Source: Thermoplasma volcanium GSS1 | GTDB lineage: Archaea; Thermoplasmatota; Thermoplasmata; Thermoplasmatales; Thermoplasmataceae | Assembly: GCF_000011185.1 (NCBI RefSeq) | Contig: NC_002689.2 | Location: 930,001-994,000 of the forward strand | Length of the DNA stretch: 64,000 nucleotides | Reading direction: 5' to 3' | Shown: positions 38,891 through 55,801 of the stretch, one piece after another | Layout: each line of letters opens with the position of its first letter | Numbering within the stretch: the first letter of the stretch is position 1 | The notes under the pieces: model-generated | Seen by the model: only the letters and a program-made list of their open reading frames with translations | Told to the model about the DNA's origin: nothing | Database searches by the model: none | Made by a program: the position numbers and the translations under genes

Positions 38891-40615
38891 TTAATGCAGT
38901 AGTGAATTGCCGATTGCCATTATTGATATGTCTGAGAAGTCTTTATGTTTTATTTGCTCCAGCGTATTATGTGTTACCCTCTCGTTTTCTGAAGTTAAAT
39001 ACTCCATGACCGTAACCTCAGTGCTTCCGGATATTCCGTTTTCGATAAGATAATCTGCTATTTTAGAAGGCATGAAATCATATGGCCTCGGTATTACAAG
39101 CACCCTTCCATTTCTGCGAAGAGAATCAAGCATTTCCTTCTTTCTATCTTCGATGTATCCGGTAACATGAAAGGAAATGACAGGCGTAAGTTCTAAAGGC
39201 ATACCGGATCTAGCCGATGCAGCCTGCACCGAACTTATGCCTGGTATTATCTCGTAATTTCTACAGCGCCCTATAAACCTCCTTATAAGTTCCGATTCTG
39301 AGAAACATGAGTCGCCGGTGAATAGGAAGGCTATCCTATAGCCTTTATCGTATAGATCTATTATCCTTTCCACATATTTCTGCTGATCCTTCCAGTGCAA
39401 TACGATTTGTTCTTTTTTCCCAATTGCGTTCCTTGCAATACGCATAGGCATCTCGTATCCTGCTACAATGTCCGCCTTAGCAATTCGATCTATCGCTGCC
39501 AACGTCATCAGGCTTGGATCGGACGGCCCTACCCCAATGAACCATATTTTCCCTTCGAATAGCTTCCTTCGTGATGCAACAGATATTGTCATAGAATGGT
39601 CGAACTTTGTGAAGGGGTAAATAATCCTAGAACCTGGACCTAATGATAAAAGTGCAGACGGCTCTGCAGAACCAGGAATCCCTAATTTTTCCTCTGCTTC
39701 TTCGGATATATGGCTCAACAGCGAAACATCGACGGATTTTAGATCATCGGCAGAAAAAGTCCGGAATTCTGTTCCGTTATCCTTAATCAATTCCGATAGA
39801 AATTTGTTATACCGAAGTGAAGATACACAATTTACATCATCATATCCAAGTCCGAGGCTTAACAATACCTCTTCGATCCTTTTCTTTATATTATATGGGT
39901 CTGCTTTTCCCGTGAAACCAATGCCAACTGATATATCGTCCGGAACAAGATAGCATATCTCGCCTCCTTCTCCTGGCCTATCTGTTATTATTATCTTTGC
40001 ATCATCTGATCTGCTGTAGGTTTTCCAAGGGTACTTTATCATTTCAAACGCGTGTTTTCTCTTCGAACTTTCATTCCTTGCAAAGACAGGATCACCGTTA
40101 GCTAGTGCAGTGTTGATCTTTAATACGCACTCAGGGTTAGCTATAGTGCAGTAGAGGCGCCTAGACATCTCCTCGACTGACATCAATCCATTCAGTTCTA
40201 CAGCGTCCGTTATTATATACTCACTTCCGATGAGTTCTGAGATGAGCCGTGCGAAGACATTCGCTGATCCAGAATGGCCATTGACGATAGGAATTGCATA
40301 TCTGCCGTAATCGTCTACTACGATCACTGCTATGCCTTCCTCTTTCAATATTGACGCTTTCTCTATTATTCTTACAGCACCGCCAAGAGACATTACAAGA
40401 ACTAAAACATCGCTTTTTCGTACTTCACTCAAGACAAAGTTTTGCGTGCTTCCGATGTACGTATTGCACCCTTTCAAATTCGATCTGCTATAGCATTTAA
40501 CAGCCAGGCCTTTTTCTGAGAGCTTTTCGCTTATTTCCAAGGCGGTCTCAGATCCTCGTTTTGATATTCCGGCAACGGTTATCTTTCTCCCATAGAACAG
40601 CGCCAATTCATTCAA
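38891..40615 (-). CDS. cbiGE: CbiG-CbiE fusion: cobalt-precorrin-5A hydrolase plus precorrin-7 methyltransferase
   Basis: A 574-residue two-domain protein. Residues 1 to about 350 are CbiG: LVMSLGGAVRIIEKAS, VIVVDDYGRYAIPIVNGHSG (the G.HxG signature) and a C-terminal region SVGIGFTGKADPYNIKKRI. From about 355 to the end is a complete CbiE-type tetrapyrrole methylase: IWFIGVGPSDPSLMTLAA, then LFTGDSCF, then YEIIPGISSVQAASARSG. So two enzymes of the anaerobic cobalamin ring pathway, the C2 lactone-opening deacetylation step and C5 methylation, are one polypeptide. TTG at 40615 is preceded by AGGAGG and overlaps the cbiF stop by four bases. CbiE is more often fused to CbiT (as CobL) or separate. 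Last gene of the cobalamin operon. Confidence 0.9.
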   Translation of the reverse strand: MNELALFYGRKITVAGISKRGSETALEISEKLSEKGLAVKCYSRSNLKGCNTYIGSTQNFVLSEVRKSDVLVLVMSLGGAVRIIEKASILKEEGIAVIVVDDYGRYAIPIVNGHSGSANVFARLISELIGSEYIITDAVELNGLMSVEEMSRRLYCTIANPECVLKINTALANGDPVFARNESSKRKHAFEMIKYPWKTYSRSDDAKIIITDRPGEGGEICYLVPDDISVGIGFTGKADPYNIKKRIEEVLLSLGLGYDDVNCVSSLRYNKFLSELIKDNGTEFRTFSADDLKSVDVSLLSHISEEAEEKLGIPGSAEPSALLSLGPGSRIIYPFTKFDHSMTISVASRRKLFEGKIWFIGVGPSDPSLMTLAAIDRIAKADIVAGYEMPMRIARNAIGKKEQIVLHWKDQQKYVERIIDLYDKGYRIAFLFTGDSCFSESELIRRFIGRCRNYEIIPGISSVQAASARSGMPLELTPVISFHVTGYIEDRKKEMLDSLRRNGRVLVIPRPYDFMPSKIADYLIENGISGSTEVTVMEYLTSENERVTHNTLEQIKHKDFSDISIMAIGNSLLH

Positions 40616-41375
40616 GATGAGCCCCTCCTAAAAGAATGCGTATAGCTTGGATCGTAAAGTTTCGTGCTGTAAACCCTCTCAGGATTGACAACTTTACCTA
40701 CAACAATTATTGCTGTTCGATATATCCTGTTGTCCTTCACCTTCTGAACTATATCTTCGAGTGTCCCGCGTATTACCTTTTCGTCCTTCCAGGTAGAGTG
40801 GTAAACTACACCCACTGGAGTATCTTTCGGGTATCCTCCTTTCAGGAGATCTTCAACTACCTTCTCGATTATGTGTATAGCTGTGAAGATAACCATGGTA
40901 CTTTGATGGCTTGACAATGCTAATATAGACTGCTTTTCTGGTACTGGTATCCTCAGCGATCCTCTGGCTATTATAACAGACTGAGATATGTTGTCCATGG
41001 TAAGCTCTATTCCTAGTGAGGCCGCCGCAGACGTAAGCACACTGACACCGGGAATAACCTCGAAATCTATGCCCTTTTCCCTCAGAAGTGAGAGTTGCTC
41101 CATAAGTGCACCGTACAAGTGCGGGTCTCCAGAATGGAGCCTTACTACATCCTTCCCCTCTGCTATAGAATTATCGATATATCCATTATTTTGTTTATGT
41201 CCATTTCGGCGCTGTTGTATATCTCTGCACTCGGATTTGCGTATTTTAATATCTCAGGATTAACAAGGGATCCAGCGTATATTACTACGCCTGCCTTTCG
41301 AAGGATATTATATGCTTTTAGCGTCAAAAGTTCAGGATCTCCCGGCCCTGCCCCAACTATATACACCTTTGGCAT
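40612..41375 (-). pseudogene. cbiF: CbiF, cobalt-precorrin-4 methyltransferase, frameshifted
   Basis: The N-terminal part ([19 protein letters not shown]) starts at the ATG at 41375 and runs into a stop after MDISIIL at 41163-41165. The other part, in a second frame, starts [20 protein letters not shown], the second signature of the family, and continues to YEI-type motifs EVIPGVSVLTSAAASLG and to the normal end at 40612. The span is 764 bases, one short of a multiple of three. A missing base near 41175-41180 in the run ATATCGATAATTC would restore a protein of the family's normal length. Whether this is a real mutation, a sequencing error or programmed shifting is open. It overlaps cbiL by one base. 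Confidence 0.85.
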
Positions 41376-42076
41376 CAGTATCGCCTCGCTATTACAAGTG
41401 AAAAGTAGTCGCCGTCCTCATTTCCAGCTTTTTCCGTTATAAATTCACTGTCCATTGTGCATCGTCTTGCATATATGTATTTCATCCCATCACCCATTAA
41501 ATTCCTTATTCTTTCTAAAGAAAAAGATCCTGTCGGAACTTTCATTATAACTACTGTGTCATATTTTTCGAAACTGCCTATTTCCAATAATTTTCTGTAC
41601 GTAGTTACGAGAACAGAATCATCACCGCTAGCTATGTTAATGGAGGATCTAGCTGAACACGCATCTACAGAATTTACGCCAGGCACGTACTCTATGCTGA
41701 CTCCTTTTTCCTCCAGCATTTGCTTTATTTTTCCGAATGTACTGTAAAATGTAGGCGAACCTATTACAGCATATGATAGAATTTTATGTTTTGCCAAATC
41801 AGAAATTATCTCTGCTACATTTTTCTCCAGGAAGGATTTGTTGTAATTATGATCCCGTGTCATAGGAAACTCCAGATCTTTCACCTGTGGTAAAGATCCT
41901 TCATTTTTTCCTGCAAAGAGCTTCTCTAGAATTGACCTTGCGATCCTATGTTCACCGCCGGAACATGGTACGTAGATTATATCGCTTTTCAAAACTGTAT
42001 CAAGGGCTTTTAATGTAACCAATGATGGATCTCCAGGGCCGAGCCCAACAACGTAAAGCTTCATATCTGCATTCAA
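41375..42076 (-). CDS. cbiL: CbiL, cobalt-precorrin-2 C20-methyltransferase
   Basis: A 233-residue tetrapyrrole methylase that puts a methyl on C20 of (cobalt-)precorrin-2. It shows the first glycine-rich motif [23 protein letters not shown], the conserved [12 protein letters not shown], then [16 protein letters not shown]. The GSPTFYS segment and YVPGV..V are typical of CbiL/CobI. The start is TTG at 42076, spaced 6 bases from an AGGTGAG site; an internal ATG at 42064 is a poorer choice. The TTG overlaps the cbiT stop (four bases), and its stop overlaps the cbiF start. Confidence 0.92.
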
Positions 42077-42678
42077 GGCTGCTCACCTGAAACTACGAAT
42101 ATTGGGTTCCTTGCTATCATAGCGTAGCTCGAGCCTGTCTTCATCCCTACAGAAATTTGTACTTCTATCACTGATACGTTCCTGAAATTATTCAGCTCCA
42201 ATGATTCAACTGCGTCATTCAAAGTCTTGACCTGAATTGCATTAATAACAACACGAGCACCACTCTTTAAGAAAGGCACATACTTGCTAACAAGATTTGG
42301 GAGATCGCCTGTCCCCCCTCCAATAAAGATAGCATCGAATGAATCGGCAGGCGAATAGGCATATGCATCCGCAAGAACTAATTGTATGTTCTTGTATGGA
42401 GATAAACGATCAAGATTTATCCGGGCTAGTTTGATAGCTTTTTCATCGCGATCCAAGGCTATTATTTTACCATTTGGACCTGCAAGCCTAGACATATCTA
42501 CAGCAACTGAACCAGTACCCGTTCCTATATCAAGAAAATGGCCTCCATTACGGACTCCCAATCTGTTTAGAGAGATGAGGCGAATTTCTTCCTTGGTCAT
42601 AGGTATGCCATCCACTCTTTCAAAAAGACTGTCTGGAGTTACGATATAATAATCGAATTTCGACTTTTCACTTTCCAT
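42073..42678 (-). CDS. cbiT: CbiT, cobalt-precorrin-6B C15-methyltransferase (decarboxylating)
   Basis: A 201-residue Rossmann-fold methyltransferase, distinct in fold from the CbiL/F/H/E family. It has the family start TPDSLFERVDGIPMTKEEIR, motif I FLDIGTGTGSVAVDMSRL, IIALDRDEKAIKLARINL and DAIFIGGGTGDLPNL. It methylates C15 with loss of the C12 acetate carboxyl. A GGAGGTTC ribosome binding site lies 7 bases before the ATG at 42678, which overlaps the cbiD end by 11 bases. Here it is a free-standing protein and the CbiE half is fused to CbiG instead. Confidence 0.93.
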   Translation of the reverse strand: MESEKSKFDYYIVTPDSLFERVDGIPMTKEEIRLISLNRLGVRNGGHFLDIGTGTGSVAVDMSRLAGPNGKIIALDRDEKAIKLARINLDRLSPYKNIQLVLADAYAYSPADSFDAIFIGGGTGDLPNLVSKYVPFLKSGARVVINAIQVKTLNDAVESLELNNFRNVSVIEVQISVGMKTGSSYAMIARNPIFVVSGEQP

Positions 42679-43804
42679 ATTTGAGAACCTCCTTTATATG
42701 CCCGTCTAAATGCGATCCTATAATCTTCCCATCATGATCTATAATCACAACTGAAAACCCGACGGATCTGGAAAAATCAGCCTTAAGCCTGTTAGATATT
42801 CTAGATGCTATTGTATTCAATACTTCAGCTACAATGCCTTCTTGTTCTATAATTGATATGGCCTCCCCAGTGTTGCTGGATTCCATTATTCTCTTTACAG
42901 CACCTTTGGAAATTCCGTACATAGCAGCCACAGCCGCAAGTGTCTCCATACGGCCATCTGCTACCTTGCTGTGTGTATTGTATATCCCTGCAGCGATCTT
43001 TACAAGCTTTCCTGGAAGCCCGAAGATTACGACATGATCGTATGCAGATTCGATCGAGGCGCTGACCGCTGCACCTACCTTATCGCCTATTAGTACGAAG
43101 GCTTTATCTGGAAGCGCAAAGTACTTTTTAGCGAACTTTAATGCAGTGTTTCCCGGACATAGCACGATAATTTTAGAGACGCACCTTCCGGCTGCAACTA
43201 TATACTTCAAGTGCAACTCATACTCTTCAGTAGAAACAGGTTCTTCTATGCCAGTAGTGCCAAGTACAGATATGCCGCCGAAAACCCCTACCTTTTCATT
43301 CATAGTCAACTTTGCAAATTCTTCACCATTGGGAACGGAAATTGATAATTCCACATCATAGCCACCAGCAGCTTCTCTTACGGCATCTTCTATCATTTTT
43401 CGTGCTCCCTGGCTTATTGCTTTTTCGCCCGGCCTTATGCCCAATCCGTCTTTCTCGACTACGCCTATGCCTGCATTTCCGGATATGGTTATTTTACTTC
43501 GTCCATTTTCCTGTTTTTTCACGACCTTGCAGTGGCACCTGATCGTTATGCCATTCAACTGATCCGGATTGTCTCCTGAAAACTTCTCTGCTGAGGCGTA
43601 TCCACTGCTTTCGTCTATTCGTACGCTCTCCACCACTTTAACTTCAATTCGTATGCCAATAGGCGTCGGGACTACAACCCTATTCTGTACGCCCTTCAAT
43701 ACGGTGAGCGTACAAGCCTTTGCGGCGGCAGCCGCAGTAAGGCCCGTAGTGATCCCGTACTGCTGAAACGGATTTACGCCAGAGCCATCAGAAGCGTACA
43801 TCAT
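42668..43804 (-). CDS. cbiD: CbiD, cobalt-precorrin-5B C1-methyltransferase
   Basis: About 378 residues. It has the CbiD signature near the N-terminus, FQQYGITTGLTAAAAAKAC, followed by the long conserved core (VEKDGLGIRPGEKAISQGAR, GVFGGISVLGTTGIEEPVS, VIFGLPGKLVKIAAGIYN). CbiD methylates C1 in the oxygen-independent pathway and is a marker of that pathway as opposed to the aerobic one (CobF). The start is at the tandem ATG at 43804/43801, overlapping the cbiH end by 14-17 bases. A longer frame from 43870 would run 83 bases into cbiH and lacks conserved residues. Confidence 0.92.
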   Translation of the reverse strand: MMYASDGSGVNPFQQYGITTGLTAAAAAKACTLTVLKGVQNRVVVPTPIGIRIEVKVVESVRIDESSGYASAEKFSGDNPDQLNGITIRCHCKVVKKQENGRSKITISGNAGIGVVEKDGLGIRPGEKAISQGARKMIEDAVREAAGGYDVELSISVPNGEEFAKLTMNEKVGVFGGISVLGTTGIEEPVSTEEYELHLKYIVAAGRCVSKIIVLCPGNTALKFAKKYFALPDKAFVLIGDKVGAAVSASIESAYDHVVIFGLPGKLVKIAAGIYNTHSKVADGRMETLAAVAAMYGISKGAVKRIMESSNTGEAISIIEQEGIVAEVLNTIASRISNRLKADFSRSVGFSVVIIDHDGKIIGSHLDGHIKEVLKYGK

Positions 43805-44543
43805 ACTTACCAGAATAGCCTCTCCTTGTAGCCATCCACCGGCCAGATACATACGTCTCGCTGTTCCCAATAATGACAGTGGTCAACATGTCTATCTCTG
43901 AGCATGAGAAGTCTTTCAATTGCACTATCTTTGCGCTTTGATCAGGCCTGTAGGCATTTCTTACTATACCTACAGGCGTATCGCCACTCCTATACTTCAA
44001 GAAATATTCCATTACTTTCTCGAGATTGTTTGGAAAGCGGGAGCCTCTTGGATTGTAGATGACGGTTACCAAATCAAGGATAGCAGCCGCCTCGGCTCTT
44101 TTCCTGATGACTTCCCAAGGCGTTAGGAGATCGCTGAGGCTAAGGACCATAAAGTCGTTGGATAGAGGGGAACCGAGAAGGGAAGCACAAGAAGAAAGTG
44201 CACTTATCCCTGGCACTACACTTACCTCAGGCATATTGTCTTCAAGAGTTGATAATATCTCGAATACAGCACCGGCAATTCCATATATCCCAGCATCGCC
44301 GCTGGATATTATGGATACGTTGTGCCCTGATCTCGCCAGTTCTATAGCTTTCTTAGCCCGTTCTATCTCACCCTGCATACCGTTTGAGATGTATATTTTG
44401 TTAGGAAACTTCTCCTTTATAAAGGAGACATAGAGGGAAAAGCCTATTACGTATTCCGATCTCTCAATAGCTAAGCTGGCTTGGGGAGTCATAAGATCAT
44501 TCGATCCAGGCCCTATACCGACAACAAACAAAGAACTCACCAA
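43788..44543 (-). CDS. cbiH: CbiH, precorrin-3B C17-methyltransferase
   Basis: A 251-residue tetrapyrrole methylase. It has FVVGIGPGSNDLMTPQASLA, YVIGFSLYV, the marker ISSGDAGIYGIAG and VSVVPGISALSSCASLLGSP, followed by the family's SDLLTPWEVIRKR and YNPRGSRFP. These are typical of CbiH/CobJ, which methylates C17 and causes ring contraction. The start is TTG at 44543 (or GTG at 44540) after a GGTGAT site; it overlaps the cbiC stop by seven bases. Fourth gene of the operon. Confidence 0.93.
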   Translation of the reverse strand: MVSSLFVVGIGPGSNDLMTPQASLAIERSEYVIGFSLYVSFIKEKFPNKIYISNGMQGEIERAKKAIELARSGHNVSIISSGDAGIYGIAGAVFEILSTLEDNMPEVSVVPGISALSSCASLLGSPLSNDFMVLSLSDLLTPWEVIRKRAEAAAILDLVTVIYNPRGSRFPNNLEKVMEYFLKYRSGDTPVGIVRNAYRPDQSAKIVQLKDFSCSEIDMLTTVIIGNSETYVSGRWMATRRGYSGKYDVRF

Positions 44544-45352
44544 TCAAGCATCACCCCAAAAGCATTTATCACAGAAGCTGCTATAGGGCTTCCACCCCTT
44601 GACCCAAGAATGGTGAGGTAATCGATGCCAGAAGATACCAAGGAATACTTTGCCCTCGCTGCCTGCACGAAGCCAACCGGAACACCTATCACAGCAGGAG
44701 GCTTTTCTTTTGTATCTCGAACAATGTTCAATAATTCTATCAATGCTGTAGGGGCGTTTCCTATCACAAAAATCGCGTCTCTTACACCATCCTCTGAAGC
44801 GATGCGCATAGCAGAAGCAGATTTCGTTATTCCCATTTGTTTGGAGATGCGATCTACTCTTTCGTCGTCCCCATAATACATTATTCTGCATCGATCCAGT
44901 AAATTCTTGTTGTATATTCCTGCCTTGACCATCTTCGCATCTACGACTATCCTGCATCCATCCCTCAACTTCTCAGCTACTGTGTCAACGAAACCAGGAG
45001 ACATCCTTATTAAATCAATCAGACGGAAGTCCCCGGCAGCATGAACTATTTTGGAAAATAGGTACCTCTCCCTGGCATTCTCTATGCTCTCCGTTACGGT
45101 CTCTATGATGTTTATGCTTTCCTCCTCAATTTTTTCTGGATCCGCCCACTCCTTTAAGTGTTCTGCCCAGGAATTTAGAATGTGCGATGATATCGAATTG
45201 TTTATAGATTTTGCATCGCCGGCTATTTTTCTAAAGAGGTCTGAATCCATATTTATTTTGTATTCCTTATTTATTATGAAAGATCCATTACGTACGCTCA
45301 CACTTAGCAAACCCTCTTCACTTGTTATATCCAGCGTATACTCTATATTCAT
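44537..45352 (-). CDS. cbiC: CbiC, precorrin-8X methylmutase, with N-terminal extension
   Basis: It moves the C11 methyl to C12, giving (cobalt-)hydrogenobyrinate. The core from about residue 80 to 271 is typical: IEEESINIIETV, IVHAAGDFRLIDLIRMSPG, IVVDAKMVKAGI, and VIGVPVGFVQAARAKYSLVS. The catalytic histidine is the one in VHAAGDF. About 60-80 residues precede the normal start, with no motif I recognise (NIEYTLDITSEEGLLSVSVR). The ATG at 45352 is chosen because GGGAGGTGG lies 6-7 bases upstream; it still overlaps cobA by 35 bases. A further start at 45382 lacks such a site. Confidence 0.9.
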   Translation of the reverse strand: MNIEYTLDITSEEGLLSVSVRNGSFIINKEYKINMDSDLFRKIAGDAKSINNSISSHILNSWAEHLKEWADPEKIEEESINIIETVTESIENARERYLFSKIVHAAGDFRLIDLIRMSPGFVDTVAEKLRDGCRIVVDAKMVKAGIYNKNLLDRCRIMYYGDDERVDRISKQMGITKSASAMRIASEDGVRDAIFVIGNAPTALIELLNIVRDTKEKPPAVIGVPVGFVQAARAKYSLVSSGIDYLTILGSRGGSPIAASVINAFGVMLDW

Positions 45353-46076
45353 CAAAACCACCTCCCAAAGAAAGGATCTCATTGAGTTTTCGACCTAAAA
45401 TAATTATAGATGGCTTAGAACAATAATGTTCATCCAAATTCTCGGCATCTTTTAATAACGAGATCTTTGCACTCGGTAATGTTCCATTTTCGACTATAAG
45501 CATATCGGAATGGCCTAAGATAGACTGGCTCAGCCTGGCTATTTGCTTTAGGAATCTAGATCCCATAAGCACGACTACAACATCAGCGTACTTTAATGCG
45601 TCCCCCAAAGATGATGCATTGAATTTGCCTTCCGATATGGAGGCCGTTACGATAGCTATATGTCTGGATACATCTTTGACAGATAGCGGTATACCATAAA
45701 ATGTCGGGACGCCTATCGCTGATGTTATTCCAGGAACCACGATTACGTCAAAACCTAGGGTGGAGACCGCCCGTATTTCCTCAGAAAGCCTTGAAAATAT
45801 ACCTGGATCGCCTGACTTAAGGTGTACGGCTACATCGAAATTGTTTGCGTTTTCCTTGATATAGTTAAGGATGATCTTTAGGCCCACGTCTGAGGAAGTC
45901 CCTTGCCTGTGCCCTACGTTTACCTGTACTTTATTAGTACAGTATTTTTCTATAAGATCATCTGATACAAGGGCATCTTTAAACACTACCTGCGACTCTC
46001 TTATTGCTTCCAAACCCATGACCGTGATCAGGTCAGGTTCGCCAGGCCCAGCACCTACAATGTAGAATTTTTTCAT
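45318..46076 (-). CDS. cobA: Uroporphyrinogen-III C-methyltransferase (SUMT)
   Basis: A 252-residue enzyme that methylates uroporphyrinogen III at C2 and C7 to give precorrin-2, the entry point of the pathway. It has [34 protein letters not shown], and VVPGITSAIGVPTFYGIPLS, all family-typical. It is translated right after the dehydrogenase-like protein with ATGA overlap. The last part includes SKPSIIILGRKL, a normal end. The conserved G.P...R region is changed from usual KGGDPF to KSGDPG, an unremarkable variant. Confidence 0.92.
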   Translation of the reverse strand: MKKFYIVGAGPGEPDLITVMGLEAIRESQVVFKDALVSDDLIEKYCTNKVQVNVGHRQGTSSDVGLKIILNYIKENANNFDVAVHLKSGDPGIFSRLSEEIRAVSTLGFDVIVVPGITSAIGVPTFYGIPLSVKDVSRHIAIVTASISEGKFNASSLGDALKYADVVVVLMGSRFLKQIARLSQSILGHSDMLIVENGTLPSAKISLLKDAENLDEHYCSKPSIIILGRKLNEILSLGGGFDEYRVYAGYNK

Positions 46077-46717
46077 CTTCCTGCTGCACCATTTAGTATC
46101 TTTGCAATGGCCTCATCAGCCATCACAGGGTTTAAAACAGAATATTCTCTAATCCGCCTATCAACAGCAATTCTGTACATCATTATGCGTCTCTTTTTTG
46201 GCTCCTTCACTGATGATATGATCTTTTCCCTGTTTCTGGCTATAGCTTCTACAACTGACTGATCCATATTATCGATCAAAGCGTATTTTTTGATAGAAGC
46301 TGCAATTCTTTTCTTCACCATAACGGTCATGGCTGGGCTCTTACCAGACGTGGACACCGCAATCTTAATAGGCCCATACTGAAGTATGGCGCATAGGTTG
46401 ATATCATTTAAGTCGTTCCTGTCCGGCACATAAACAAGTTTCGAATGTCTCCTAGCGAAATAGGCTAATTTTGTGTCTAAATCACGATCTTCGGTTGATA
46501 TAAAAGCAAGGAAAGGTTTCACAGACTCGATGGCATCGTAACTATCCTCAAAACTCGAAGACACACGAATAACGTTTGCATCCTCTAAAAGAACTTCGTC
46601 TGATATAACGTATACAGTGCCGAATTCAGAGTGATACAATTCGAATTTATCCCTGAACTCTTTTCCGTGGCCGATAAATAGTGAAGTACTCTTACTCAAA
46701 CGTAAATCAACTATCAT
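46073..46717 (-). CDS. Precorrin-2 dehydrogenase-like protein (Met8/CysG N-terminal type)
   Basis: A 214-residue relative of siroheme synthase N-terminal domain, which oxidises precorrin-2 to sirohydrochlorin with NAD. It has LCAILQYGPIKIAVSTSGKS, corresponding to the family's ...(R)G.l.iaisT.GkSP, and a helical C-terminal domain with YALIDNMDQ. The NAD-binding loop is unusual: IGHGKEFRDK instead of the usual GGG.VA...K. If active it would supply sirohydrochlorin for cobalt insertion in the anaerobic route. It is the first gene of the operon. A TATA element in the middle of nested repeats precedes it. Confidence 0.82.
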   Translation of the reverse strand: MIVDLRLSKSTSLFIGHGKEFRDKFELYHSEFGTVYVISDEVLLEDANVIRVSSSFEDSYDAIESVKPFLAFISTEDRDLDTKLAYFARRHSKLVYVPDRNDLNDINLCAILQYGPIKIAVSTSGKSPAMTVMVKKRIAASIKKYALIDNMDQSVVEAIARNREKIISSVKEPKKRRIMMYRIAVDRRIREYSVLNPVMADEAIAKILNGAAGR

Positions 46718-47290: not shown

Positions 47291-47893
47291 TCAGAAAAAG
47301 TCAGTAAGTGATTTATAAGCAGGAATTGAATCTTCTCTCTTCAATACGATCATTGTCTCGTTTGAGCATGATATGAGCTGTATAATGTTTATGCCCATAG
47401 AATATACACGCTCCACAACATTCAACGCAAACCCTGGGGTGCTAACTATCTCAGGAGGAGAAAAGATGTGGATTAAGCTCACGTCCCTCTGTACCTGAAC
47501 GTCTTTTGGTACTGTTTTTGTTCTCGATTCATCGATAATGTATACCACAGAATCAGTTAAAAAAGTAGCCGATAAATAATCTACATCTACCTTATGCCTC
47601 GAGGTTATGACTGTTACCTTGTCCTGCAGAACAATTTTACTTTTTCTGAGAAGATCATCGGTATATTTTCGATAGTCTTTGAACCCGGCTTGCTGCAACA
47701 GCTTCTGAAGGGAGGCCCTGACAGATAGGGGATTCAGATTCGTGTACTTTTCGCTTATCATCTTTGCAAGTGCGTTAAGATTAAGAAGCCCGTCCCTAAA
47801 GGTGAGGTAAACTTCAGGCCTCAATGAAACGTACTCTAAGACCTTCCTTTCAACGTCGCCTTTGCCACTTCTTTTCATAATCTCAGAAATCAT
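47291..47893 (-). CDS. Winged-helix plus ACT-domain protein (probable amino-acid-responsive regulator)
   Basis: A 200-residue protein. The N-terminal half (VERKVLEYVSLRPEVYLTFR, ALAKMISEKY, PLSVRASLQKLLQQAGFKD) looks like a winged helix-turn-helix. The C-terminal 60 residues form an ACT-like domain: VSLIHIFSPPEIVSTPGFAL, VVERVYSMGINIIQLISCSN, ETMIVLK. ACT domains bind amino acids. It is divergently transcribed from argG-argH with a 107-base spacer, so I infer that it may control arginine biosynthesis in response to an amino acid. The TATA-like AATTTATG sits about 25 bases upstream. The match to known aspartate-kinase-type ACT modules is by eye and the DNA-binding role is untested. Confidence 0.65.
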   Translation of the reverse strand: MISEIMKRSGKGDVERKVLEYVSLRPEVYLTFRDGLLNLNALAKMISEKYTNLNPLSVRASLQKLLQQAGFKDYRKYTDDLLRKSKIVLQDKVTVITSRHKVDVDYLSATFLTDSVVYIIDESRTKTVPKDVQVQRDVSLIHIFSPPEIVSTPGFALNVVERVYSMGINIIQLISCSNETMIVLKREDSIPAYKSLTDFF

Positions 47894-48000: not shown

Positions 48001-49194
48001 ATGAAAGAATTACTCCTTTTGTATTCAGGAGGATTAGACACATCAGTGATGATCAAGTGGATGAACGAAAATCTAGGCTACGACGTATCAACCCTTACCC
48101 TGGACATAGGTAATAACGACCTCAAATCCATAAGAGAAAAGGCGGAGGCCATAGGTGCAGTAGAAACATTCGTAGAAGATGTTTAACAAGAATTTTCATA
48201 CGAATACATTTCTAAATCAATCCTCGCTAACGGAAGTTACGAAGGCTACCCGTTATCTACAGCGCTGGCAAGGCCGCTTATGGCAAAGAAGGCTGTTGAA
48301 CTTGCTGAAAAACATGGTTTTGAGGCCATAGCACATGGATCAACAGGTAGAGGCAATGATCAGGTAAGATTCGAACTTGGAATAAAGGCACTAAACCCAA
48401 GCTTAGAGATGCTTGCCCCAGTGAGAGACTGGAACATGCTGCGATCCGAAGAAATAGAATATGCAAAGAAAAATAATATTATAGTACCATCAGACGGCAA
48501 GTATTCAGTTGATGAAAACCTGTGGGGCAGATCCATAGAGGGATCGGAAATTGAGAACATGTCCTTGCCTGTACCAGAAGATGCCTATGAGTGGCTCGTA
48601 CCGCCCTGGGAAGCCGGTCCTGGCGAAGTTATAAAACTTGAGTTTAGCAATGGCCTGCCCGTGGCAATTAACGACAGTGATTTTGAATTACAGAATTTGA
48701 TAGCCAATTTAAATATAATAGGTGGCAGGAATTCAATAGGGCTTATAGATCACGTTGAGGATAGGATAACTGGAATAAAGAGCCGTGAAGTTTATGAATG
48801 CCCTGCCGCAGAGATAATAACGTATGCGCATGGATACTTGGAATCTCTCATATTAAACAAGCATGAAATTTCTATAAAATCGTTCTTAGATTCAAAATTT
48901 TCACAATTTGTCTACAACGGGCTCTGGTATGATCCTGCTATGAAACCATTGATAGCCGGAGAGGAGATCTTGAACAGCGAGATAAATGGATCAATATCTC
49001 TTAAATTATATAAGGGGAAAATTTACTTCAACGGATCCAAAGGAGCAAACTTTAGCTACAACAGTAATGTAGCCAATTATAGCACGTATGAGTTTGATCA
49101 GAAATCCTCAAAGGGCTTCATAGACATATTCAAAAATGATACCGTATACTCCATTCTTGCTAGGCAAAAGGCAAAGGAGGAGGCTTTAAGTTGA
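48001..49194 (+). pseudogene. argG: Argininosuccinate synthase with one in-frame TAA
   Basis: The whole gene is present: 397 codons in a single frame, from the PP-loop start LLLYSGGLDTSVMIKWMNEN to IDIFKNDTVYSILARQKAKEEALS. The only defect is TAA at 48184-48186 after VEDV; the next residues, QEFSYEYISKSILANGSYEG, continue without a frameshift and match the family, as do HGFEAIAHGSTGRGNDQVRF and DENLWGRSIEG. The natural codon was probably AAA, GAA or CAA. As written, the strain cannot make a full-length enzyme, so arginine synthesis would fail unless the stop is read through or is a sequencing error. The TATA-like GATATAAT lies about 25 bases upstream of the ATG. It overlaps argH by four bases. 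Confidence 0.88.
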
Positions 49195-50504
49195 AGATAT
49201 GGCAAGGCGGGGCAGCAAAACCCTCGGAATATGATCCGATGGAATACCTGGTCAAATTAGATGTTTCAGCTGATACAATACTCGAAAAGTACGAAATAAT
49301 CAACTTGATGGCCTATCATTATGAATTAATAAAAATTGGCATCATAAACGAAGAAGATGGCAAATGCTTACTAAATGCTTTAATAAAAGCCTACGAGGGA
49401 AAAATAACGATAGATGTAAAGGATGAAGATGTGCATACTGCAATTGAAAATTGGGTAAAGGGCCTATGCCCCAAAAATTGGGAGAATCTAAGGCTATTCC
49501 TGTCAAGGAATGAACAAGTCCACGCAGACATGATACTTTATCTGTTGGATTCATTCTATAAGATGAATAAAATATTCCAGTCATGCATAGAAAAGACAAT
49601 AGGGGTAAATGGCGAAGGCTATCTACCAGGGTATACCCATTTCCAGCAGGCGATGCCGTTTACTTTCAAAAGTTTTATGAATTCGGTGTTACTGCTTCTG
49701 GAAAGAAATATTTTGAACGTTCATGATTTTTTCCAAAAGATCAGGATAAACGTATATGGATATGGTTCAGGATATGGTTCTCCAATTTCTGCCAAATTTG
49801 ATAAGATGGGTGAATTATTGGGTCTAAGATATGATCATAAGAACCCCATATTCTTATCTTCATTGTATCCTCAAACCCTTCTTGAAGCTTCCCAACTCAT
49901 CGTTACCATAATGATGCCCCTTTCAAGGTTGTCATCAGACACAATAAATTACTATTCAAGAGGAATAATGGACATACCAGACGAATTCACAACTGGCAGT
50001 TCTCTAATGCCAAACAAGAGAAATCCGGATTATCTTGAGATGATCCAAGGTTTAGCAGCTGAATCTGTCGGTGTATCATCTTCAATAGCTTCAATAGCCC
50101 TGAATAAACAAATTGGCTATCATAGAGATTTTCAGATTGCAAAAGATTCCATCGTGTTTCTGATTGAGAAGCTAATAGCGCACCTGGATCACTTGCCGGA
50201 CCTTTTAGGCCGTATTGAGTTTTTTAAGGAAGCATCGGAACGTGCTGTAGAAAATTCTTCATATGCAACCATGAATGCGTGGAATGCCTTCTTTAAAGGA
50301 ACGAGATGGAAGGAGGCATACGCTCGCATCGGGAATATGGTAAGGGAAAACAACGAACTTGAGAAGGTAGATTTCGAGACCCCTACTGATAATCTGGATA
50401 TCGCTAACACAAGAAGGATAATATATGAAGAAAAATATATTGTGGATAGTTTTCTATCGGTTCCGGAGAGATTGAAAAACTTGATCAGGATTACCGAATC
50501 TTAA
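49191..50504 (+). CDS. argH: Argininosuccinate lyase
   Basis: A 437-residue lyase that releases arginine and fumarate from argininosuccinate. It shows the N-terminal MKIWQGGAAKPSEYD, the DEDVHTAIENW motif, YTHFQQAMP, the YGSGYGSPI segment, and the signature GSSLMPNKRNPDYLE (residues about 268-282), which carries the catalytic serine loop. The reading frame is intact. It starts with TTG at 49191, overlapping the argG stop (TTGA), after a GGAGGAGG ribosome binding site. Its 3' end overlaps the convergent lactonase-like gene by 14 bases. Intact here although argG upstream is interrupted. Confidence 0.95.
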   Translation: MKIWQGGAAKPSEYDPMEYLVKLDVSADTILEKYEIINLMAYHYELIKIGIINEEDGKCLLNALIKAYEGKITIDVKDEDVHTAIENWVKGLCPKNWENLRLFLSRNEQVHADMILYLLDSFYKMNKIFQSCIEKTIGVNGEGYLPGYTHFQQAMPFTFKSFMNSVLLLLERNILNVHDFFQKIRINVYGYGSGYGSPISAKFDKMGELLGLRYDHKNPIFLSSLYPQTLLEASQLIVTIMMPLSRLSSDTINYYSRGIMDIPDEFTTGSSLMPNKRNPDYLEMIQGLAAESVGVSSSIASIALNKQIGYHRDFQIAKDSIVFLIEKLIAHLDHLPDLLGRIEFFKEASERAVENSSYATMNAWNAFFKGTRWKEAYARIGNMVRENNELEKVDFETPTDNLDIANTRRIIYEEKYIVDSFLSVPERLKNLIRITES

Positions 50505-53980: not shown

Positions 53981-55801
53981 ATGCTTTCAGTTGAAAAGGA
54001 AAAATACCCTAACATTAGGTTCGCCAGTGATTTTGAAATAAGCGAGAATGCTCCATTTAAGACGGTCGATGAGTTTGTTAAGGAAATGGGCCACCTCATA
54101 AACGAAGACATGCTTGTTATAAGAGTAACAGAAAGCCTCTGCCCTGGCTGCGTCGATGAAGAGAAATTCGACCAGATGAGGATCCCAGCAATAGTATACG
54201 AAGAAGGCGGAGATGTAAAGTTAATAAAAGAATGCCCAGAGCACGGGATAACCACAGAGAAGTATTGGGAAGACTATGAGATGTTTGAGGAGGCAAAGAA
54301 ATGGCAGGATCCAGGTATAAAACTTATGAATCCTAACGTTGCCTACTATGCTTCCAAGATTGTTTGCCCGACTCACTGCGGGCTCTGCGTCAAACACAAA
54401 TCGCATACTGGATTGGGCAATATAGTAGTCACGAATAGGTGCGATCTGTCATGCTGGTACTGTTTCTTCTATGCTAAAGAGAATGAGCCAATATACGAAC
54501 CGACACAGGATCAGATAAGGATGATGCTCCGCCGCATGAAGAATGAAAAGCCAGTCGGGGCAAACGCAGTGCAGATAACTGGTGGAGAGCCCACAATGAG
54601 AGACGATATCATAGACATAGTAAGAATAGCGAGGGAAGAAGGTTACGATCACGTACAGTTAAACACCAATAGCGTAAGGGCAGCGTTTGACCCAGACTTT
54701 GTTAGGAAGGTAAGGGAAGCTGGATCAAACGTTATATATACTAGCTTTGATGGTCCAACACCAAGGTCAAACCCAAAGAACTTCTGGGAAATACCTGATG
54801 CACTAGAAAATTACAAGAAGGCACCGCTTGGGGTAGTGCTAGTTCCTACTGTGATAGGCGGGGTCAACGATATGTATCTGGGGGATATCATAAGGTTCGG
54901 ATTATCGAACATAGACGTGGTCCGTGCAGTAAACTTCCAGCCTGTCAGCCTGGTAGGAAGGATGCCAGACAGGGCCAGAGCGAAGCAGAGGATAACGATT
55001 CCGGGAGCAATAAAGAAAATAGAACAGCAGACCGATGGTCTCATAGGTAGGGAAGATTTCTTCACTGTACCGTCTTCAGCAGCTGTATCTAACTTCGTTG
55101 CTGCACTTAAGGGCAGACCGACATACAAACTATCAATCCACTATGCGTGCGGTATGGGAACATACCTGTTCAAGGATGACGAAAAGGTAATACCCGTAAC
55201 TAGGTTCGTAGATGTGAAGGGTATGTTCGAGTATATACAGAATCTTGCTGATGAGATAGAAGATTCTACATTTAAGAGCCTCAAGAAAGTGGAGACTACC
55301 ACAAGGCTGCTCTACAACCTCAAGAAATTCGTAGATTATGAAAAAGCTCCAAAGGACTTCAAGTTGAAGGACATGGTTTATAATGCATTTACAGAAGGGG
55401 ACTATCATGGGCTTAAGGCTTTCCACTACAAATCCATGTTCATAGGCTTCATGCACTTCCAGGATCCGTACACATACGATGTAGATAGGGTAGAGAGATG
55501 CGATATCCACTATGCGATGCCTGATGGCAGAGTTATACCATTCTGTGCATTCAACGTTATACCAGAGCTATACAGGGACTCAACACAGAGGAAATACTCG
55601 ATACCTGCAAAAGTATACGAAGAAAAGACAGGAAGGAGCCTTAAGAAAGAGAAATACTTCAGGGAATACAGTATGGAGGATAAAAAGAGGATAATAGCCT
55701 TCTATGAGAGGAGCATCGGAAGGAAATTGACAGAAGAGGAGATAGGGCAGAAACTAGAGGATCCAATACCTGTTATTTCATCACAGAATCCAGATATGTG
55801 A
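53981..55801 (+). CDS. tes: Radical SAM tetraether lipid synthase-like protein
   Basis: A 606-residue radical SAM protein with the layout of tetraether synthases (Tes; the methanogen MJ0619/MA_1486 type). The N-terminal zone has ESLCPGCVDE (Cys54, Cys57) and ECPEHG (Cys85). Then come IVCPTHCGLC (Cys129, 133, 136), and the SAM cluster motif NRCDLSCWYCFFYA (Cys154, Cys158, Cys161). GGEPT and NTNSVRAA follow. The C-terminal part has RCDIHYAMPDGRVIPFC. This multi-cluster pattern fits an enzyme that couples phytanyl chains tail-to-tail to form tetraether (caldarchaeol) lipids, which dominate Thermoplasma membranes. A TATA-like ACTTTTATAG sits about 26 bases before the ATG. Function is inferred from family resemblance. 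Confidence 0.85.
   Translation: MLSVEKEKYPNIRFASDFEISENAPFKTVDEFVKEMGHLINEDMLVIRVTESLCPGCVDEEKFDQMRIPAIVYEEGGDVKLIKECPEHGITTEKYWEDYEMFEEAKKWQDPGIKLMNPNVAYYASKIVCPTHCGLCVKHKSHTGLGNIVVTNRCDLSCWYCFFYAKENEPIYEPTQDQIRMMLRRMKNEKPVGANAVQITGGEPTMRDDIIDIVRIAREEGYDHVQLNTNSVRAAFDPDFVRKVREAGSNVIYTSFDGPTPRSNPKNFWEIPDALENYKKAPLGVVLVPTVIGGVNDMYLGDIIRFGLSNIDVVRAVNFQPVSLVGRMPDRARAKQRITIPGAIKKIEQQTDGLIGREDFFTVPSSAAVSNFVAALKGRPTYKLSIHYACGMGTYLFKDDEKVIPVTRFVDVKGMFEYIQNLADEIEDSTFKSLKKVETTTRLLYNLKKFVDYEKAPKDFKLKDMVYNAFTEGDYHGLKAFHYKSMFIGFMHFQDPYTYDVDRVERCDIHYAMPDGRVIPFCAFNVIPELYRDSTQRKYSIPAKVYEEKTGRSLKKEKYFREYSMEDKKRIIAFYERSIGRKLTEEEIGQKLEDPIPVISSQNPDM

Follow-up and report, generated by a model that had tools for sequence, protein, structure and literature searches.

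The window, a stretch of 64,000 nucleotides from the genome of the thermoacidophilic archaeon Thermoplasma volcanium GSS1 (a single contig of 1,584,804 bases), carries the adjacent genes argG and argH together with a cobalamin cluster. The features relevant to this study are:

40612-41376, minus strand: cbiF, cobalt-precorrin-4 methyltransferase, with a single-base-type frameshift near 41178-41187 (congener alignment, profile match)
47291-47893, minus strand: divergent conserved neighbor that weakly resembles the C-terminal regulatory part of aspartate kinase, a synteny marker shared with all four congeners
48001-49194, plus strand: argG, argininosuccinate synthase, with one in-frame TAA (translation, homologue alignment, profile search)
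48184-48186, plus strand: premature stop TAA at codon 62, with an inferred ancestral AAA and one A-to-T change at 48184 (homologue column, codon comparison)
48280-49194, plus strand: longest post-stop ORF starting from ATG, GTG or TTG, 304 amino acids, without the N-terminal SGGLDTS loop (ORF reading)
49191-50504, plus strand: argH, argininosuccinate lyase, intact, with its TTG start on the argG stop and the GSSLMPNKRNP signature kept (profile match)

Translation of the window places argG in a single frame of 397 codons, which ends in a proper TGA overlapping the TTG start of argH and is interrupted once, by TAA at codon 62 followed by CAA. The sequence-only reading had described one frame of 397 codons with the TAA at 48184 as its sole defect, and all of its coordinates proved accurate. 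The peptide it quoted around the stop, VEDV*QEFSYEYI, is exact, and both flanks are recognized as argininosuccinate synthase. Residues 1-61 hit PF00764 at 1.4e-15, and the part past the stop matches the NCBIfam models PRK00509 and TIGR00032 at 5.8e-113 and 6.8e-99, respectively. Against TIGR00032 the full-length gene reached 399.8 bits with the search tool reading through the stop (cut-off 268.2), which places it in the family, and the 335 residues past the stop alone gave 331.8 bits. The SGGLDTS ATP-binding loop sits in the 61-residue stub before the stop, and no ATG, GTG or TTG occurs in frame between the stop and the ATG at 48280. That argH directly downstream is intact, as had also been claimed, is borne out by 781 bits against the equivalog model NF005000.

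The lesion is specific to this genome among those compared. In 46 of 117 genomes of the order argG scored above the cut-off, and an internal stop was present only in T. volcanium GSS1; the four congeners and the other 41 above-cut-off matches are stop-free. A comparison with related strains had been proposed as a check; all four congeners hold an intact argG orthologue, uninterrupted, beside argH and in the same neighborhood. The divergent gene at 47291-47893 (minus strand) is conserved in all Thermoplasma, and its product may be an amino-acid sensor. In the column of the stop, 84 homologues carry K in 66 cases, R in 10, T in 4, and I, V, L and N once each. Among the congeners, the three codons read at this column were AAG in two and ATA in one, whereas the nearest outgroup contig (L008) has GAT-GTT-AAA against GAT-GTT-TAA in the window. 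Given the GTT-AAA of L008, one A-to-T change from AAA (Lys) to TAA would be the simplest history of the stop. The genome has one argG; a second match to PF00764 is weak and lies in a 245-aa frame. Thus, as in a nonsense pseudogene, the lesion is absent from the orthologues and there is no functional second copy. In a separate case within the order, a genome of 50% completeness (G101) has argG in two pieces one base apart (G101:C9:24466-25636), probably owing to a frameshift or an assembly error.

Apart from the stop, argG looks like a gene under selection. It keeps the residue at 72 of 75 near-invariant columns; of the three exceptions, those at positions 107 and 357 are in columns at which L008 deviates too. 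Its mean distance to outgroups is 1.53, compared with 1.68-1.74 for the congeners, and we therefore rejected faster evolution, which would have been a sign of older decay. Differences from the congeners amount to about 0.35, 0.23 and 0.65 at codon positions 1, 2 and 3, which as a sequence pattern is that of a gene under selection. The retained residues together with a rate no higher than in the congeners argue that the change is recent. Since no second stop or frameshift was found in argG and about 4.5% of the possible substitutions would give a stop, we estimate that neutral drift since the lesion is bounded to roughly 2-6% per site.

The genome has intact genes for ornithine carbamoyltransferase, carbamoyl-phosphate synthase and argininosuccinate lyase. 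In contrast, no recognizable ArgB or ArgC was found in any Thermoplasma genome searched, with nothing near either cut-off. At any length, aspartate-semialdehyde dehydrogenase is all that the argC model picks up, and the argB model, among the hits identified, gave carbamate kinase and an aspartate-kinase-like protein. Matches to ArgC and ArgB in the congeners had at first looked like a pathway lost only in T. volcanium; this idea was rejected once they turned out to be these three proteins. Hence, none of the Thermoplasma genomes searched shows a known path from glutamate to ornithine, and ArgG and ArgH would serve the last steps only, from ornithine or citrulline to arginine. The statement that this lineage "has just lost arginine synthesis" is for this reason too strong, because the genus has no known way from glutamate to ornithine that could have been lost. 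For a cell that scavenges peptides, losing genes that close only these last steps would probably cost little. The genome also encodes a member of the arginine deiminase family (147 bits to PF02274, below the arcA equivalog cut-off); this protein, carbamate kinase and ornithine carbamoyltransferase together agree with the arginine fermentation described in a related species, Ferroplasma acidiphilum (PMC5473848).

Dispensability of argG is also visible across the order. Among 51 near-complete genomes, 28 have a full match and 23 have none (about 45% without), so that the expectation that such a nonsense change should be rare to catch was overstated, the more so with a second lesion in cbiF 7 kb away. 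Furthermore, aspartate-semialdehyde dehydrogenase is absent in T. volcanium GSS1 and found in 4 of 4 congeners, which suggests that loss of amino-acid pathways is under way in this lineage; a homoserine-dehydrogenase homologue has been kept. In genome G001 the aspartate-semialdehyde dehydrogenase gene adjoins a 272-aa aspartate-kinase-like gene (region L164:8302-10133).

The second lesion lies near 41178-41187 (GGATATATCG). Residues 1-66 and 67-250 of congener CbiF align in two abutting frames of the window, and we read the frameshift as one that a one-base deletion would account for with the congener spacing kept. The gene is whole in the congeners, and the other genes of the cobalamin cluster (about 38891-46717) align without breaks. 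Lesions were sampled by comparing 184 kb of the T. volcanium genome with 280 kb of the nearest complete congener. Among the 58 congener ORFs with a counterpart, argG and cbiF carried the only convincing lesions; 5 of 7 candidates were rejected on reading as 5' extensions, antisense ORFs or degenerate short ORFs, including an upstream extension ahead of a likely true start at 870774 and a degenerate 122-aa ORF at 901023. A different feature of the window is a 606-aa protein (53981-55801) that is 97% identical to its G001 copy, while most neighbors reach 40-80%; this gene is perhaps strongly conserved or recently shared.

The sequence-only reading had offered fresh loss, sequence error and read-through. 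This was the right set of options, and our data favor the first, leave the second as its main rival and lend no support to the third. A sequencing or finishing error, hiding a whole ArgG and a sense codon at 48184-48186 that would most likely be AAA (Lys), is possible, although we regard it as rather unlikely. It would explain why argG is otherwise unblemished and under constraint. The change from GTTAAACAA to GTTTAACAA sits within runs of T and A, where base calls can slip, and the cbiF frameshift, likewise in a short A/T run, affects an unrelated pathway in which the remaining genes are undamaged. That the only two convincing lesions of the 184-kb sample lie 7 kb apart raises the odds of such an error, although they fit fresh or laboratory-fixed mutations equally well; neutral drift has been reported to prevail for Ferroplasma in laboratory culture (PMC5473848). 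Arguing against an error, argG loss is common in the order, the genome was finished as a single contig, and stop-yielding substitutions are a small share of those possible in argG. Moreover, the outright loss of another amino-acid pathway enzyme makes a real loss unsurprising. Viral contigs scanned with a pattern that left the base at 48184 free gave no same-species sequence, and a literature search found nothing on T. volcanium argG, proteome data included.

If the TAA were translated as an amino acid efficiently enough to be useful, ArgG would still be made, and conservation downstream of the stop as well as the TAA-CAA context could be taken in this sense. A published survey argues that prokaryotic genes often tolerate an in-frame stop for a short time through read-through (PMC7918605); it considered only stops shared by at least two genomes, whereas the argG stop occurs in no relative, and a very recent mutation would be expected to leave just as much conservation as is seen so far. 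A covariance-model search found no tRNA with a UUA anticodon among 45 tRNAs (tRNA-Trp was not recovered), and an intron-bearing tRNA at 1061497 was taken by us as tRNA-Tyr. TAA acts as a normal stop: in 184 kb, 60 of 141 long ORFs end in it, with TAA-CAA in one case. The predicted fold of the 100 nt past the argG stop does not surpass that of shuffled sequences (z = 0.63). We therefore judge read-through to be improbable, and a UAA-suppressed archaeal enzyme with a real TAA read as lysine or another residue to be very improbable. The two pieces might also each be functional, with the 61-aa ATP-binding stub and the 304-aa remainder made separately and either cooperating or having taken on a new role. 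The ORF from ATG 48280 is formally open; however, with no earlier in-frame start residues 63-93 would be missing, and the same break is found in no relative among the 117 genomes of the order, which makes this proposal extremely improbable.

Thus, argG of the sequenced strain, as seen in this one genome, is probably a genuine and very recent nonsense allele. The stop would be real DNA and not a base-calling error, the allele would be null, and it would be tolerated because arginine is supplied. A single A-to-T change would have turned Lys codon 62 from AAA to TAA, so that ribosomes would halt there and release a stub of 61 residues that includes the ATP-binding loop, but no synthase would be made; restart at ATG 48280 would give a product without this loop. 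Such a cell should be unable to convert citrulline and aspartate to arginine and would instead obtain arginine from peptide-rich surroundings or the growth medium, as the many relatives without argG most likely do.

If real, the allele adds another recent case in which a lineage of peptide-scavenging archaea has lost an amino-acid biosynthesis gene, and it is useful as a dated loss event. It would also caution against pathway predictions that credit T. volcanium GSS1 with the ability to finish arginine. If it is an error, a reference genome is to be corrected. In either case the mechanism is ordinary.

In domain content (TIGR00032, NF001770/PRK00509, PF00764 and PF20979) the window copy equals argininosuccinate synthase, and its argG-argH order is that of the congeners; it differs by one internal TAA at codon 62. 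With recoded or read-through stops, such as selenocysteine TGA, pyrrolysine TAG and leaky TGA, it shares an in-frame stop inside a conserved gene. In contrast to these, the codon is TAA, no matching tRNA was found, neither stop nor structure is conserved, and relatives carry Lys. Although the argG lesion is known here from one strain's sequence, it resembles an ordinary recent nonsense pseudogene of a free-living prokaryote in its single lesion, otherwise pristine gene, dispensable pathway and lineage-specific occurrence.
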